A stretch of 64,000 bases of DNA, taken from assembly GCA_031254105.1 (NCBI GenBank), contig JAIRVB010000021.1:186001-250000 (forward strand). The letters run 5' to 3'. The stretch is from Chitinispirillales bacterium. GTDB lineage: Bacteria; Fibrobacterota; Chitinivibrionia; Chitinivibrionales; Chitinispirillaceae. The position numbers were made by a program, and so were the translations under genes. Shown in pieces: positions 57,875-64,000 of this stretch; positions within the stretch are counted from its first letter, which is position 1; each line of letters opens with the position of its first letter. Under the pieces are notes generated by a model, which was given only the letters and a program-made list of their open reading frames with translations, was not told the origin of the DNA and did not search any database.

Positions 57875-58801
57875 ATGAGCACGCAAAAAAAAGATCTTCT
57901 GACACTTTTCGACTATTCTACCGAACAGATTCGGGAAATGATCCGTCTGGCCGCAGAGATTAAAGCTCGGCGGCACAGTAACCAGTACAACAAACTCCTT
58001 GATAAAAAAACAGGAGTGCTTATTTTTGAAAAGCCCTCGCTTCGTACACGTATTTCATTTGAAACAGCGATATATGAGCTGGGAGGGCATGTAATAAACC
58101 TTGCTTCTGAGGCTGTGGGCGTAGGCACGCGTGAGAGTGTTGAGGATGTAGCGAAAAATCTGGAGAGAATCGTACATCTGATCGTATTCCGCACTTTCGG
58201 ACACGGTAAGTTAGAACGGCTGGCCCGTTCCAGTTCGATTCCTGTTATAAACGCGCTTACTGATTCGCATCATCCCTGCCAGGCGCTGGCCTTTGGCCTG
58301 ACGATGCATGAGGCGCGGCCTGACACAAAACTAAATGTACTTTTTGCGGGTGACGGCAACAATGTATGTAATTCCATTATGGTTCTTTGCGCAAAATTAG
58401 GACATAATTTCACATTCGCGGGGCCAAAAGGATATGAGCCTGACGCTGATGTGGTAAACCGCTGTTTGGAAGTTTGCGCTCAGAGCGGCGGCAGCGTAAA
58501 GGTTACCAATGACTTACACTCAGCCGCTCCGGATGCGGAGGTCATTTATACCGATGTATGGACAAGTATGGGACAGGAAGCGGAAGCGCAGGAACGCAGA
58601 AAACTTTTTATAGACTATCAAGTAAACAGAGCGCTTATCGAGACAGCGACACGTGATGTACTTGTTTCGCACTGTCTGCCGGCGCTGCGGGAAGAGGAAA
58701 TTACAAGCGATGTGCTTGATTCCGCTCACAGCGTTGCTTTTGAGGAAGCGGAGAACCGCCTCCATATTCAGAAAGCTGTGATTGTGCATCTTTTTTCATG
58801 A
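57875..58801 (+). CDS. argF: Ornithine carbamoyltransferase
   Basis: A 308-residue cytoplasmic enzyme that makes citrulline from ornithine and carbamoyl phosphate in arginine synthesis. The carbamoyl-phosphate motif is SLRTR (55-59), then HPCQ (133-136), and the ornithine loop HCLP (266-269) in VSHCLPALREEE. The closing segment is FEEAENRLHIQKAV. HCLP and the SMG loop (TDVWTSMGQE) favour the ornithine over the acetylornithine or aspartate enzymes. No other arg genes adjoin it. Confidence 0.95.
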   Translation: MSTQKKDLLTLFDYSTEQIREMIRLAAEIKARRHSNQYNKLLDKKTGVLIFEKPSLRTRISFETAIYELGGHVINLASEAVGVGTRESVEDVAKNLERIVHLIVFRTFGHGKLERLARSSSIPVINALTDSHHPCQALAFGLTMHEARPDTKLNVLFAGDGNNVCNSIMVLCAKLGHNFTFAGPKGYEPDADVVNRCLEVCAQSGGSVKVTNDLHSAAPDAEVIYTDVWTSMGQEAEAQERRKLFIDYQVNRALIETATRDVLVSHCLPALREEEITSDVLDSAHSVAFEEAENRLHIQKAVIVHLFS

Positions 58802-58921: not shown

Positions 58922-59692
58922 ATGAGTGAAAATCGTGTTCCTTTTGGGATAAAATCCTTAGATAAAATGATATACGGAGGGCTTATTCCCTTCTCCGCCA
59001 ATCTTCTTGAAGGCGCTCCGGGTACAGGCAAAACTACAATGGGGATGCAGTTTATATATAACGGTATCACTATGTACAATGAACCTGGGCTTATTATCAC
59101 TTTTGAGGAGTTCCCTCAGCAGTATTACCATGACGCGCTGAAGTTTGGATGGGATTTTAAGAAGCTTGAGAGCGAAGGTAAACTTAAAATCATTTTTTCC
59201 GATCCGTCTACTACTCTTAATGAATTTGACAAGCCGGGAGGAGAGTTTGTCTCACTTGTAGAGGAGATGGGAATAAAGCGCGTAGTGGTTGATTCTATGA
59301 CGCACTTTGAATCTATAAGCGCAAATCCCCATGAATTAAGAACCATGGAGAGGCGCTTTATAAATGCGCTCAAAAGGGAGAGTCTAACAAGCATCCTGCT
59401 GCGGGAGAACGATACGCTTTTGGGTAATGTATCTCAGATATCAAGCAAGATCTCTTTTATTGTTGACACTTATGTGCTTTTACGGTATGTTGAAATAGAC
59501 AGTGCCATTGAGAAGGCTCTTTGTTTTCTTAAAATGCGCGGCAGTGATCATCAGAAGGAGATCCGCTGCTTTAAGATAACGCAAAAAGGGATAGAGGTCT
59601 CCTCGAAGTTCAGCGGCAAAGAAGGTATCATGAGCGGAATCACACACTCAACGCCTCAAGACGCGTTTGTAAATGTATTCGGAAAGAGGTAA
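58922..59692 (+). CDS. KaiC-like RecA-superfamily ATPase
   Basis: A 256-residue single-domain KaiC/GvpD/RAD55-type ATPase. PFGIKSLDKMIYGGLIPFSA opens the fold, Walker A is GAPGTGKTT (31-39), the catalytic Glu pair is TFEEFPQQYY, and Walker B is VVVDSMTHFE. The C-terminal RGSDHQKEIRCFKITQKGIE matches the KaiC substrate-facing strand. It has one ATPase domain, not two as in cyanobacterial KaiC. It begins a five-gene run with two small membrane proteins and two receiver proteins, so it is probably a signalling switch rather than a clock part. Confidence 0.88.
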   Translation: MSENRVPFGIKSLDKMIYGGLIPFSANLLEGAPGTGKTTMGMQFIYNGITMYNEPGLIITFEEFPQQYYHDALKFGWDFKKLESEGKLKIIFSDPSTTLNEFDKPGGEFVSLVEEMGIKRVVVDSMTHFESISANPHELRTMERRFINALKRESLTSILLRENDTLLGNVSQISSKISFIVDTYVLLRYVEIDSAIEKALCFLKMRGSDHQKEIRCFKITQKGIEVSSKFSGKEGIMSGITHSTPQDAFVNVFGKR

Positions 59693-59705
59693 TCGGGAGA
59701 GTTTT

Positions 59706-60005
59706 ATGGAGCTTCCGACAACCGCAGAGGTATTTCTCATTGCCGGATACGTTTTGTTCTGCATGGGATTAAACGGCGTTGCTTTTTTGATCTCCGCTTT
59801 TTACAGAAAAAAGTTGAAGCATTACGCTCCGTATTTGGGTTTTCTACTCTCGCTTTTATTTGGGGCGGTGTTTATAGGAACCCTTTTGATAAAAGACGGC
59901 GGATCAAGCGTGAGTATTGTTAGAACGACATCTCTTTTAGGATGCAGCATGTTTTCCGCTTTAAGTGTAACCGGATTATATATGTCAATGAGAAAGGCGA
60001 GATAA
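59706..60005 (+). CDS. Small membrane protein in the KaiC-like operon (first)
   Basis: A 99-residue protein from the ATG at 59706 (MELPTTAEVFLIAGYVL). Three hydrophobic segments: about 7-29, 41-63 and 72-92. A basic loop, FYRKKLKHYAP, separates the first two. No family is recognised. It sits 13 bases after the ATPase gene and 6 bases before the next membrane protein, and is probably co-expressed. Confidence 0.7.
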   Translation: MELPTTAEVFLIAGYVLFCMGLNGVAFLISAFYRKKLKHYAPYLGFLLSLLFGAVFIGTLLIKDGGSSVSIVRTTSLLGCSMFSALSVTGLYMSMRKAR

Positions 60006-60011
60006 GGGAGA

Positions 60012-60311
60012 GTGATTTACGAACAGACCCTCTTCTTTTTCGATATGTCGGCTGTCACAACGATGCTTGTATTCGCCTACCTGAGCAAGCGTCTTGGCGA
60101 AGCTCTGCCTATAAAACCGTATTATATAATACTTTTCTTTACATCAGCGGCGATTGTCGCTGCTTCCGGTATTGAGACTATTCCGCAGTCATTGAGTTTG
60201 AAATTTATCTCATTATTAACATATACAATCCGGTGCGCCGCGACAGGCGTTGCTTTTTTTGTTGTGCTGAGGTATTGGAAATGGCTCTTCGCCGAGTTCT
60301 CAAAAAGTTGA
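60012..60311 (+). CDS. Small membrane protein in the KaiC-like operon (second)
   Basis: A 99-residue protein from a GTG at 60012 just after AAGGGAGA. Three hydrophobic segments: about 10-24, 37-55 and 66-88. The order of charged loops (YLSKRLGEALPIKPYY) differs from the first membrane protein, but the size and three-helix layout are alike, so the two may form a complex. No family is recognised. Confidence 0.65.
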   Translation: MIYEQTLFFFDMSAVTTMLVFAYLSKRLGEALPIKPYYIILFFTSAAIVAASGIETIPQSLSLKFISLLTYTIRCAATGVAFFVVLRYWKWLFAEFSKS

Positions 60312-60325
60312 GGGTTTGATTAAAA

Positions 60326-60703
60326 GTGAAGAAAAAAATTTTACTTATTGAAGATGATGTCGACAGCGCGGCGCTTGCAAAGTTAGTGCTTGAGACTGAT
60401 ATGTTTGAGGTAAAAACAATTTTTGATCCTGAAGCCGCATGCGATGAAGCGAGAGCGTACAGGCCGGACGCCATATTACTTGACCTGTGCATGCCCAAGC
60501 TTGACGGATGGGCGGTGTTCAGGCTTATTCGCGAAGACAAATCTTTCGATAATATACCAGTCGCTATTCTCACAGGTAAAGGTGAATCGTTTGATCATAT
60601 GGTGGGTCTTCATATAATGAACGCAGACGCTTACATCACGAAACCATTTGGGAAACAGGAATTGATAGATAAAACATATGAGCTCCTTGAAAGAAAAAAA
60701 TAA
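60326..60703 (+). CDS. Single-domain response regulator (first)
   Basis: A 125-residue CheY-like receiver without an output domain, from a GTG at 60326. The acidic pocket is IEDD (8-11), the phosphoacceptor is Asp53 (LLDLCMPK), the switch Thr is in AILTGKG, and Lys106 is in YITKPFG. It must act through a partner, probably the KaiC-like ATPase or a histidine kinase elsewhere. Its last 26 bases overlap the next receiver gene. Confidence 0.9.
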   Translation: MKKKILLIEDDVDSAALAKLVLETDMFEVKTIFDPEAACDEARAYRPDAILLDLCMPKLDGWAVFRLIREDKSFDNIPVAILTGKGESFDHMVGLHIMNADAYITKPFGKQELIDKTYELLERKK

Positions 60704-61112
60704 ACGCATTCTTATCGTTGACGATGAGGTAGATGTTCTTGATTTTTTAAAGATCTATCTTGAATCGCTTGGCTGGGAAGTAACGACCGTTCCTGCCATA
60801 CGGCAGGCTTTTGATGAGCTTGACAAACAGGCTTACTTTCTGGTAATTACCGATATCGCAATGCCGGATATGGACGGTTACGAATTCATCAGTAAAATTA
60901 AAGAGAAAAACTATGGTTCTCAGATCGCTCTTATGACAGGTTTCGGTTACAACCCAAAACATACGCTTGTCAAGATTTACAAAACAATCCGCTATCCCTG
61001 CCTTTTCAAACCTTTTAACAGGGCGAAAGTGGCCGAAGCGGTTCAAAACGCTTTTGACAATTATAACAACGGCAGTGCCGCGCAGGCTGTTGACCCTAAT
61101 TCTCAAAATTAG
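60678..61112 (+). CDS. Single-domain response regulator (second)
   Basis: A 144-residue receiver. VDDEVDV (14-20) supplies the acidic pair, Asp59 the phosphoacceptor (VITDIAMPDMDG) and Lys111 the switch lysine (CLFKPFN). A 20-residue tail follows the fold. It is clearly different from the first receiver, so the two may form a relay or respond to separate kinases. The coding overlap of 26 bases suggests coupled translation. Confidence 0.9.
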   Translation: MSSLKEKNKRILIVDDEVDVLDFLKIYLESLGWEVTTVPAIRQAFDELDKQAYFLVITDIAMPDMDGYEFISKIKEKNYGSQIALMTGFGYNPKHTLVKIYKTIRYPCLFKPFNRAKVAEAVQNAFDNYNNGSAAQAVDPNSQN

Positions 61113-61279: not shown

Positions 61280-64000
61280 ATGCGTAACATAATAATAAGG
61301 GGCGCGCGTGTTCATAACTTAAAGAACATAGATGTGACTATTCCGCGCAACACACTTACGGTTATTACAGGTTTAAGCGGCAGCGGAAAATCATCTCTTG
61401 CCTTTGATACACTTTATTCTGAAAGTCAAAGACGGTATGTGGAATCCCTCTCCTCTTACGCCCGGCAGTTTCTTGGGCTTATGGAAAAACCTGACGTTGA
61501 CCAAATAGATGGTCTCTCTCCCGCTATCTCCATAGAGCAGAAAACTACAAGTCAGAATCCCCGCTCCACAGTAGGGACAATAACCGAGATACATGACTAT
61601 CTGCGTCTGCTTTTTGCAAGAGCGGGTACGCCTACCTGCTGCGGACGCGTTATTTCCCGCCAAAGCATACAGGAGATAACAGATAAAATTCTTGGATTGA
61701 ACCAAGGGACAAAGTTTCAAATCCTTGCGCCTGTAGTCAATAACCGCAAAGGCATTCACAAAGAACTTTTGTCAAAGTTACAAAAGAACGGGTACGTTAG
61801 AGTAAGAGTTGATAAAATAGTGTATAATATTGATGAAGAAATACCAATCGATCCGAACAAAAAGCATACTATAGAAGTTGTAATTGACAGACTGATAAAC
61901 TCTCCAAAAATAGCTTCGCGCCTTACAGAGTCAATTGAGACTGCTGTCGCGGTCAGCAGCAACGAAACTGTTGTCGCGGATATAACAGGCGGTGAGGAAC
62001 TTCTTTTTTCGCAGCGTCTTGCCTGCATTTCCTGCGGCATGAGCTATGATGAACCTACACCGGCCATGTTCTCCTTTAACAACCCTTTGGGAGCGTGTGA
62101 GCAGTGTCACGGTTTAGGATTTCTTATGGAGATAGATCCGGAGCTTGTAGTGCCTGATCCGGCTGTTAGTTTAAGCAATGGAGCGATTGTGCCGTGGAAC
62201 GGCGCTTATACCGAAGGCGGATGGAACTATCAGATTTTGCAGGGTGTATGTAAGCATTATAAGATATCAATGGACAAACCATACAAGTCATTCACCGAAA
62301 AGCAAAAACATATATTGCTGTATGGTTCCGGGGATGAGCTTATTGAAGTGATGCACGAAACTAAAAACGGCAACTACCGCGGAAAGCTTAATAAAGTTTT
62401 TGAGGGAGTAATACCTAATCTGCTGCGGCGTTACAAAGATACTTCCTCTGAGGAGGTCAGGCGCTGGATAGAGGGGTTCATGGCCCGTAAAACCTGTAAT
62501 GTGTGTAAAGGAACAAGATACAAAAAGCAAAGTCTTGCGGTTTTGATTGAGGGTAGAAATATCGCGGAACTTTCAAACTTGTCAATAGAATCCGCGCTTG
62601 AGTTTTTTAAAAACTACAATCCTCGGGGCCAGCATCAAAAAGAGATCGCAAAGCCAATTGTACGGGAGATTTTGCAACGTTTTGGATTTCTCAACGATGT
62701 GGGGCTTAGCTATTTAAGCCTTGACAGAACGGCATCAACACTTTCAGGAGGAGAGTCTCAACGGATTCGTCTTGCCACTCAGATCGGTTCAAAACTTACG
62801 GGTGTGCTTTACATTTTAGATGAACCGAGCATTGGTCTTCACCCCAGAGACAATACGCGGCTGCTCGCCACCCTTACCGCGCTAAGAGACCTTGATAATA
62901 CGGTTGTCGTGATTGAGCATGACAAAGAGACAATAATGGCGGCGGATTATCTTATTGACATTGGCCCGGGCGCGGGAACCCATGGAGGCGAGCTTGTTGC
63001 GCAGGGAACGCCTGTTGATATAGCCAAATCAGGAAAATCGCTCACCGGACAGTATCTCTCCGGAAAACGCTCAATTCCGCTCCCTGTAAAAAGGCGCGGC
63101 GGAAACGGCATGTCTATAAAGATTAATGGCGCGGCCGGACACAATCTAAAAAGTATAGATGTGACTTTTCCTCTTGGAATGCTTGTTTGCGTGACCGGAG
63201 TATCAGGATCGGGTAAAAGTTCTCTTGTAAATCAAACGCTTTATCCGGCATTAGTCAAAAAGCTGTACAAGTCAAAAGCTATCCCCTTGCCGCACAAAAG
63301 TATAGAGGGATTATCCAATCTCGACAAGGTAATCGATATTGATCAATCGCCTATCGGCAGAACGCCAAGATCCAATCCAGCTACCTATACTAAAATGTTT
63401 GACACAATAAGAAACCTCTTCGCTATGCTGCCTGAAAGCAAGATAAGAGGATACTCTCCAGGCCGTTTCAGCTTTAATATTAAAGGGGGCAGGTGCGAAA
63501 CCTGCGAAGGCGATGGAGAACTTCGCATAGAAATGCATTTTTTACCGGACGTTTATGTTCAGTGTGAAACATGCAGAGGAAAACGCTATAACCGCGAAAC
63601 ACTTGAGGTACTTTACAAAGGCAGATCAATAGCGGATGTGCTGAACATGACTGTTGACGAAGCGCTTGTGTTTTTTGACAATCTCAGCGTAATCAAGCAA
63701 AAACTTCAGGTGCTCTCTCAAGTTGGTTTAGGGTATATCCGGCTGGGGCAGCCCGCAAACACCCTCTCCGGGGGTGAAGCCCAGCGGATAAAGCTTGCTT
63801 CGGAACTTGCTAAACGCGCAACAGGGAAAACGCTTTACATCCTTGATGAACCCACAACGGGCCTTCACTTCGAAGATATTTTAATGCTTATGAACGTCAT
63901 ACAGGAGCTTGTAGACAAGGGTAACTCAGTCATTGTCATTGAGCATAATCTTGACGTAATAAAATCCGCGGATTATATAATTGACATCGGGTTGGAGGGT
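61280..64000 (+). CDS. uvrA: UvrA excinuclease subunit, canonical, cut by the right edge
   Basis: From the ATG at 61280 (MRNIIIRGARVHNLKNIDV) the frame is open for 907 codons to the last base, about 35-45 short of the usual length of UvrA. It has two ABC modules: Walker A GLSGSGKSSLAFD near residue 32, signature TLSGGESQR near 488, and, in the second half, GVSGSGKSSL near 642 and TLSGGEAQR near 827. The zinc segments CISCGMSYDE/CEQCHGLG and CETCEGDGEL/CETCRG are present; the first UvrA-type finger reads TPTCCGRV. It recognises damaged DNA with UvrB. No stop is in view. It is separate from the double-length UvrA at 13.6-19.0 kb. Confidence 0.95.
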   Translation, partial: MRNIIIRGARVHNLKNIDVTIPRNTLTVITGLSGSGKSSLAFDTLYSESQRRYVESLSSYARQFLGLMEKPDVDQIDGLSPAISIEQKTTSQNPRSTVGTITEIHDYLRLLFARAGTPTCCGRVISRQSIQEITDKILGLNQGTKFQILAPVVNNRKGIHKELLSKLQKNGYVRVRVDKIVYNIDEEIPIDPNKKHTIEVVIDRLINSPKIASRLTESIETAVAVSSNETVVADITGGEELLFSQRLACISCGMSYDEPTPAMFSFNNPLGACEQCHGLGFLMEIDPELVVPDPAVSLSNGAIVPWNGAYTEGGWNYQILQGVCKHYKISMDKPYKSFTEKQKHILLYGSGDELIEVMHETKNGNYRGKLNKVFEGVIPNLLRRYKDTSSEEVRRWIEGFMARKTCNVCKGTRYKKQSLAVLIEGRNIAELSNLSIESALEFFKNYNPRGQHQKEIAKPIVREILQRFGFLNDVGLSYLSLDRTASTLSGGESQRIRLATQIGSKLTGVLYILDEPSIGLHPRDNTRLLATLTALRDLDNTVVVIEHDKETIMAADYLIDIGPGAGTHGGELVAQGTPVDIAKSGKSLTGQYLSGKRSIPLPVKRRGGNGMSIKINGAAGHNLKSIDVTFPLGMLVCVTGVSGSGKSSLVNQTLYPALVKKLYKSKAIPLPHKSIEGLSNLDKVIDIDQSPIGRTPRSNPATYTKMFDTIRNLFAMLPESKIRGYSPGRFSFNIKGGRCETCEGDGELRIEMHFLPDVYVQCETCRGKRYNRETLEVLYKGRSIADVLNMTVDEALVFFDNLSVIKQKLQVLSQVGLGYIRLGQPANTLSGGEAQRIKLASELAKRATGKTLYILDEPTTGLHFEDILMLMNVIQELVDKGNSVIVIEHNLDVIKSADYIIDIGLEG

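Follow-up and report, generated by a model that had tools for sequence, protein, structure and literature searches.

Introduction

To our knowledge, few partners are known for bacterial KaiC homologues that occur without KaiB. Cyanobacterial KaiC of the KaiABC clock has two domains. Its phosphorylation sites are Ser431 and Thr432 (PMC10076222). Other KaiC-like proteins have been linked to membranes and to signalling. ArlH (FlaH) is a single-domain KaiC-like protein within a signal-regulated membrane machine, the archaellum motor (PMC8978795), and archaeal KaiC-like proteins have been proposed to act as signal hubs in which the ATPase is joined to receiver domains (PMC5847659). In Myxococcus, the single-domain receiver of the EpsW-EpsZ pair is predicted to act on a membrane enzyme by protein contact (PMC12802240).

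Here, we describe a locus from the Fibrobacterota in which the gene for a single-domain KaiC-like ATPase (KaiC-a) lies next to genes for two orphan membrane proteins (M1 and M2) and two stand-alone receivers (RR1 and RR2). The conserved operon and its orphan membrane proteins suggest an undescribed membrane-docked signalling machine.

Results

Organization of the kaiC locus

The window analysed here is a stretch of 64,000 nucleotides from a Chitinispirillales bacterium (assembly GCA_031254105.1, contig JAIRVB010000021.1, positions 186,001 to 250,000). An initial annotation had reported five tightly spaced genes near its end, and all five were found in place on the plus strand, with intergenic gaps from kaiC to RR2 of 13, 6, 14 and -26 bases. 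The first gene (58922-59692) encodes KaiC-a, which is the annotated one-domain KaiC-like ATPase: the 256-residue protein carries one domain and matches Pfam PF06745 with an E-value of 3.4e-49 over profile positions 1-228 of 231. It is followed by the genes for M1 (59706-60005) and M2 (60012-60311, GTG start), each of 99 residues, and by those for RR1 (60326-60703, GTG start) and RR2 (60678-61112). The two receivers account for two Response_reg (PF00072) matches, with E-values of 3e-21 and 4e-21, as had been expected of a pair of stand-alone response regulators. Pfam searches found no histidine kinase among the five genes, in agreement with the annotation, and no RNA element was found in the region. 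Downstream of the cassette, on the same strand, uvrA (61280-64000) runs off the window end; it occupies the same position in most Chitinispirillales.

Upstream of kaiC lies argF (57875-58801, plus strand), which encodes a true ornithine carbamoyltransferase, with matches to TIGR00658 and NF001986 that both exceed the curated cut-offs. argF is directly upstream of kaiC in relatives from nine families, and the two frames overlap by 4-8 bases in several of these families. argF is thus the constant upstream companion of the cassette and the first gene of the operon. The argF-kaiC gap is 120 bases in the window genome (58802-58921), whereas in most relatives it lies between -8 and 38. This spacer carries a palindromic, repeat-like insert that is peculiar to the window genome, in which two copies of GTTTCCAGTT face two copies of AACTGGAAAC to give 28-nt inverted arms plus smaller perfect ones. 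Five partial copies are found elsewhere in the same genome. The insert resembles mobile or REP-type elements, and may provide a separate start or stop signal for kaiC in this genome. A 567-residue open frame in one relative (G022) was considered as an argF-kaiC fusion and rejected, because argF stops in another frame.

Conservation of the cassette across the phylum

The initial annotation had proposed a survey of gene order as a check. We found the argF-kaiC-M1-M2-RR1-RR2 order, complete or nearly so, at matching spacing in 20 relatives, and M1 and M2 did not prove to be members of an ordinary family. The KaiC proteins of relatives that share this order and tight spacing are only 47-86% identical to the window protein, and the RR1 and RR2 frames of relatives overlap by 23-47 bases. 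Because order, spacing and overlap recur at this degree of divergence, the gene arrangement is far beyond chance. Profiles made from these loci recovered the order in additional families. Two more distant families (f11 and f12) have argF-kaiC-M1-M2-RR1 and no RR2; M1 is strongly diverged in both, with its FYxxKF motif still present.

A profile search of 168 Fibrobacterota genomes for KaiC matched 45, one of which was dropped from the KaiC-a count because it has only a paralogue, KaiC-b. KaiC-a is therefore present in 44 genomes, which represent nine families. The proteins retrieved with KaiC-a come from Chitinispirillia and Chitinispirillales bacteria, Chitinispirillum and "Fibrobacteria bacterium GUT77". 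M1 was detected in 43 KaiC-a genomes, plus one weak match off the cassette, and M2 in 42 of the 44; the two genomes without an M2 match (G012 and G028) have contigs that end inside the cassette. M1 and M2 adjoin KaiC-a wherever the contig extends that far, and nothing convincing was found for either protein away from KaiC-a in the 168 genomes of the phylum. Adjacency itself accounts for part of this co-inheritance of neighbouring genes. Three of the four same-family genomes that lack KaiC-a also lack a detectable argF, and most of these absences are therefore probably due to missing contigs.

The proteins of the cassette are conserved to different degrees. Mean column identity is 73% for KaiC (alignment A1, 26 orthologues), 67% for RR1, 61% for RR2, 41% for M1 and 42% for M2. 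At each of the 19 loci that allowed both to be scored, KaiC-a is better conserved than the neighbouring ArgF, as expected for a protein with several partners. Beyond the phylum, about 224 genomes gave no KaiC match at E ≤ 1e-60. Another 377-genome set, which shares some members with the first, gave none better than 1e-55, and most matches there were two-domain KaiC proteins.

Natural variants point to the core genes

One genome, G020, lacks most of the cassette that the rest of its genus carries. In this genome, an intact RR2 gene starts about 10 bases after argF and is followed by uvrA, and kaiC, M1, M2 and RR1 are gone from both the locus and the rest of the genome. The block kaiC-M1-M2-RR1 has thus been lost from G020, where argF-RR2 remains. 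In genus g17 (G029 and G038), kaiC-M1-M2 remain next to argF without RR1, and RR1 is therefore not indispensable. RR2 is limited to part of the Chitinispirillales and is a later, separable addition in that one order. Together, the G020 deletion, the g17 arrangement and the restricted distribution of RR2 indicate that kaiC-M1-M2 form the core, with RR1 as a near-constant member. The five-gene unit described initially must be redrawn: argF joins the string, and the genes that are kept or lost together are kaiC, M1, M2 and RR1, not all five.

A gene for a PaaK-type acyl-CoA ligase lies after kaiC-M1-M2 in g17. In family f7 (L038, L039 and L040), a PaaK-type ligase gene stands after the cassette, where RR2 would be, and the closest NCBIfam model to the L039 ligase is flexirubin FlxY, with a score below cut-off.

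We considered whether the locus is an ordinary gene string, held together by general synteny, in which the neighbours do not work together. The argF and uvrA genes that flank the cassette in most Chitinispirillales fit such a string, but the order persists in f11 and f12 despite different flanking genes, and where the cassette is absent, the genes beside argF are unrelated. In addition, the genes are tightly spaced with overlaps, and the block was lost as a unit in G020. We give very little credence to this explanation.

KaiC-a keeps the catalytic residues and lacks the KaiC phosphorylation sites

KaiC-a aligns with cyanobacterial KaiC through the whole domain (E-value of 4e-95 with the profile) and matches both domains of solved KaiC chains, with a C-terminal tail and KMRGS segment that are CII-like. 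All 26 aligned orthologues keep the Walker A sequence GAPGTGKTT, the catalytic pair E62-E63, the Walker B residue D124 and the inter-subunit K/R fingers K204 and R206. KaiC-a therefore resembles cyanobacterial KaiC, and especially its CII domain, in RecA-like fold, P-loop, glutamate pair, K/R fingers and C-terminal segment. Unlike cyanobacterial KaiC, it does not have two tandem domains, scoring 136 bits against the circadian model TIGR02655 (cut-off 546), and both phosphorylation sites are replaced. The position of S431 is Pro in the family, with Ser only in the genus of the window, and that of T432 is an invariant Phe (F179 in the window protein). With its catalytic residues intact and both of these positions replaced, the KaiC-a family looks like a working ATPase that lacks the KaiC autokinase sites.

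These residues bear on the possibility that KaiC-a is an autokinase that passes phosphate to RR1 and RR2, in a KaiC-driven variant of two-component signalling. Such a role would fit the KaiC homology, the likeness of the tail and KMRGS segment to the CII (kinase) domain, the nearby receivers with no histidine kinase, and the example of ArlH, which autophosphorylates without ATP hydrolysis (PMC8978795). However, Pro occupies the S431 position in nearly all orthologues and Phe the T432 position in every one, and the catalytic residues indicate hydrolysis. We also know of no Ser/Thr phosphate that serves as donor to a receiver Asp, which counts further against this model, and we regard it as improbable.

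KaiC homology, together with the KaiBC systems present in the phylum, could also suggest a relic or part of a KaiBC-type clock or timer. Searches for KaiB (PF07689) gave no match in the window genome, and the Synechococcus elongatus positive control did match. KaiB was found in 15 genomes of the phylum and is absent from most KaiC-a genomes. In several genomes, it is only a few hundred bases away from another KaiC, which belongs to the same superfamily and shares some genomes with KaiC-a, but has two domains, is only 24-33% identical and lacks M1 and M2. KaiC-a is unlikely to be a clock component or a classical KaiC autokinase, because the two phosphorylation sites are missing and the genome has no KaiB. 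Since the missing sites are those that drive oscillation, and KaiB is often found near the two-domain KaiC instead, the clock explanation is largely refuted and is the least credible of those considered here.

The paralogue KaiC-b is a solo single-domain protein of families f10-f12 that groups with KaiC-a (support 92/87). Its gene (L058-L064) is conserved beside greA and holA-like genes, with no M1, M2 or receiver partner.

M1 and M2 are predicted three-helix membrane proteins

The annotation of M1 and M2 as three-helix membrane proteins without family held up on closer analysis (alignments A2 and A3). AlphaFold2 models of fair confidence place helices at residues 6-37, 43-60 and 67-98 of M1 (pLDDT 81) and at residues 2-31, 39-55 and 64-98 of M2 (pLDDT 87), a long-short-long layout in both. 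Positive-inside counts give about 3 Lys and Arg residues for loop 1 and for the C-terminal tail of each protein, and under 1 for the N terminus and loop 2. This distribution of charge indicates that both are inner-membrane proteins with a predicted N-out/C-in topology. The cytosolic side would include the motif FYxKKF in M1, and LSxRLGEAL and YWxWLFxE in M2.

Searches of Pfam, NCBIfam and PDB sequences returned scattered weak matches for M1 and M2, none common to most members, and Foldseek found no known fold in the PDB at E ≤ 0.001. Matches to M2 outside the phylum were at chance level (E about 0.001-0.003). We also considered that M1 and M2 might be paralogues, given their similar predicted helix layouts, but profile comparison gave no support.

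RR1 and RR2 have intact receiver sites

The acidic pocket, phospho-acceptor Asp, Thr/Ser and Lys are all present in both receivers (alignments A4 and A5). In RR1, D11, D54 and K107 (A4 alignment numbering) are invariant, and these include the phospho-acceptor Asp and the active-site Lys. No second RR1 orthologue was found in the genomes tested. RR2 contains an invariant TGFGYNPxHT loop. Since the KaiC family lacks the S431/T432 sites and no phosphate donor could be identified among the genes of the cassette, RR1 would have to receive its phosphate from an external source.

In families f13 and f14, which have no KaiC-a cassette, the gene immediately upstream of argF (L100:2442-2678 and L102:2455-2691, both minus strand) encodes a stand-alone protein of 79 residues whose H-box (HEYNNIFNTLNGYAEL) resembles that of histidine kinases. 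It was rejected as the missing kinase because clear matches occur in only these two cassette-less genomes, and the other matches are weak, partial and inside long frames.

Carbamoyl phosphate is worth considering as a donor because the argF link is fixed, carbamoyl phosphate is the substrate of ArgF, and it can phosphorylate many receivers (PMC3369931). RR1, perhaps with RR2, could thus be phosphorylated by this metabolite and report its level, as a carbamoyl-phosphate or nitrogen/energy sensor, to the KaiC ATPase and the membrane proteins. The adjacency of argF and kaiC in nine families, the overlapping frames and the lack of a kinase in the cassette are consistent with such a sensor. However, co-expression with argF may merely supply a convenient promoter, phosphorylation by small donors is a generic property of receivers, and carbamoyl phosphate did not dimerise the receiver protein EutV (PMC3369931). 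Moreover, g17 keeps argF-kaiC-M1-M2 and has no RR1. We consider the sensor a minor possibility, though it has more to commend it than the autokinase.

Discussion

We propose that the cassette encodes a KaiC-type ring ATPase that docks at the membrane on M1 and M2, with phosphorylated RR1 as its gate, a model to which we give an even chance of being correct. KaiC-a would form a RecA-fold ring that hydrolyses ATP; we assume a hexamer, from the family. M1 and M2 would assemble in the inner membrane and anchor the ring there. RR1 would receive its phosphate from a kinase whose gene lies outside the locus or from a small-molecule donor, and phosphorylated RR1 could then bind the complex and change the ATPase state of the ring. 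The module may convert a phospho-signal into an event at the membrane, or work in the opposite direction, and RR2 could be a lineage-specific second input or output. The sequences themselves establish gene content and order, co-inheritance, the intact ATPase and receiver residues, the missing KaiC phosphorylation sites and a charge-based topology; the ring, the complex, its gating, the direction in which signals pass and the cellular output are inferred. The model has precedents in the single-domain receiver of EpsW-EpsZ, which acts on a membrane enzyme (PMC12802240), and in ArlH, a KaiC-like protein in a membrane motor (PMC8978795). Against it stand the strong divergence of M1 in f11 and f12 and the persistence of kaiC-M1-M2 in g17 in the absence of RR1.

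The initial annotation had interpreted the locus as a self-contained, membrane-linked phospho-signalling switch. Our results uphold a membrane-linked module of KaiC, membrane proteins and receivers in conserved order. Its self-contained nature is not supported, however, because it is tied to argF and RR2 is separable, and the replaced phosphorylation sites, together with the lack of an identifiable donor in the cassette, leave a phospho-switch in the sense first proposed unsupported as well.

The annotation had also matched the locus to no described system, and our searches found no counterpart; within the literature covered, which is incomplete, no published description of the kaiC-M1-M2-RR1 gene set was found. 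The KaiC-a operon differs from the KaiABC clock in its membrane proteins and receivers, and in the lack of KaiB from the window genome. ArlH is also a single-domain KaiC-like protein, but it does not hydrolyse ATP (PMC8978795), its ArlI and ArlJ partners were not found in the cassette, and KaiC-a scores 31.7 bits against the NCBIfam ArlH model (cut-off 215). The archaeal KaiC-REC proteins are fusions (PMC5847659), whereas here the ATPase and receivers are separate genes of a bacterial phylum, accompanied by two new membrane proteins. EpsW is a stand-alone receiver like RR1, but its target is a sugar-phosphate transferase rather than an ATPase ring. The ATPase and the receivers are of known kinds, and what is new is their combination with two orphan membrane proteins.

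The cassette provides a strongly conserved bacterial KaiC whose partners are constant and include two orphan membrane proteins, and the natural deletion in G020 marks which genes belong together. With four small genes, the role of a single-domain bacterial KaiC becomes directly testable. The combination of KaiC, receivers and membrane proteins resembles the signal hubs proposed for archaea. More tentatively than the model itself, we suggest that the Fibrobacterota may possess a bacterial machine of a new class, ancient in the phylum, in which a receiver-gated KaiC ring ATPase acts on a dedicated two-subunit membrane platform or uses it for sensing, possibly tuned by carbamoyl phosphate through argF.
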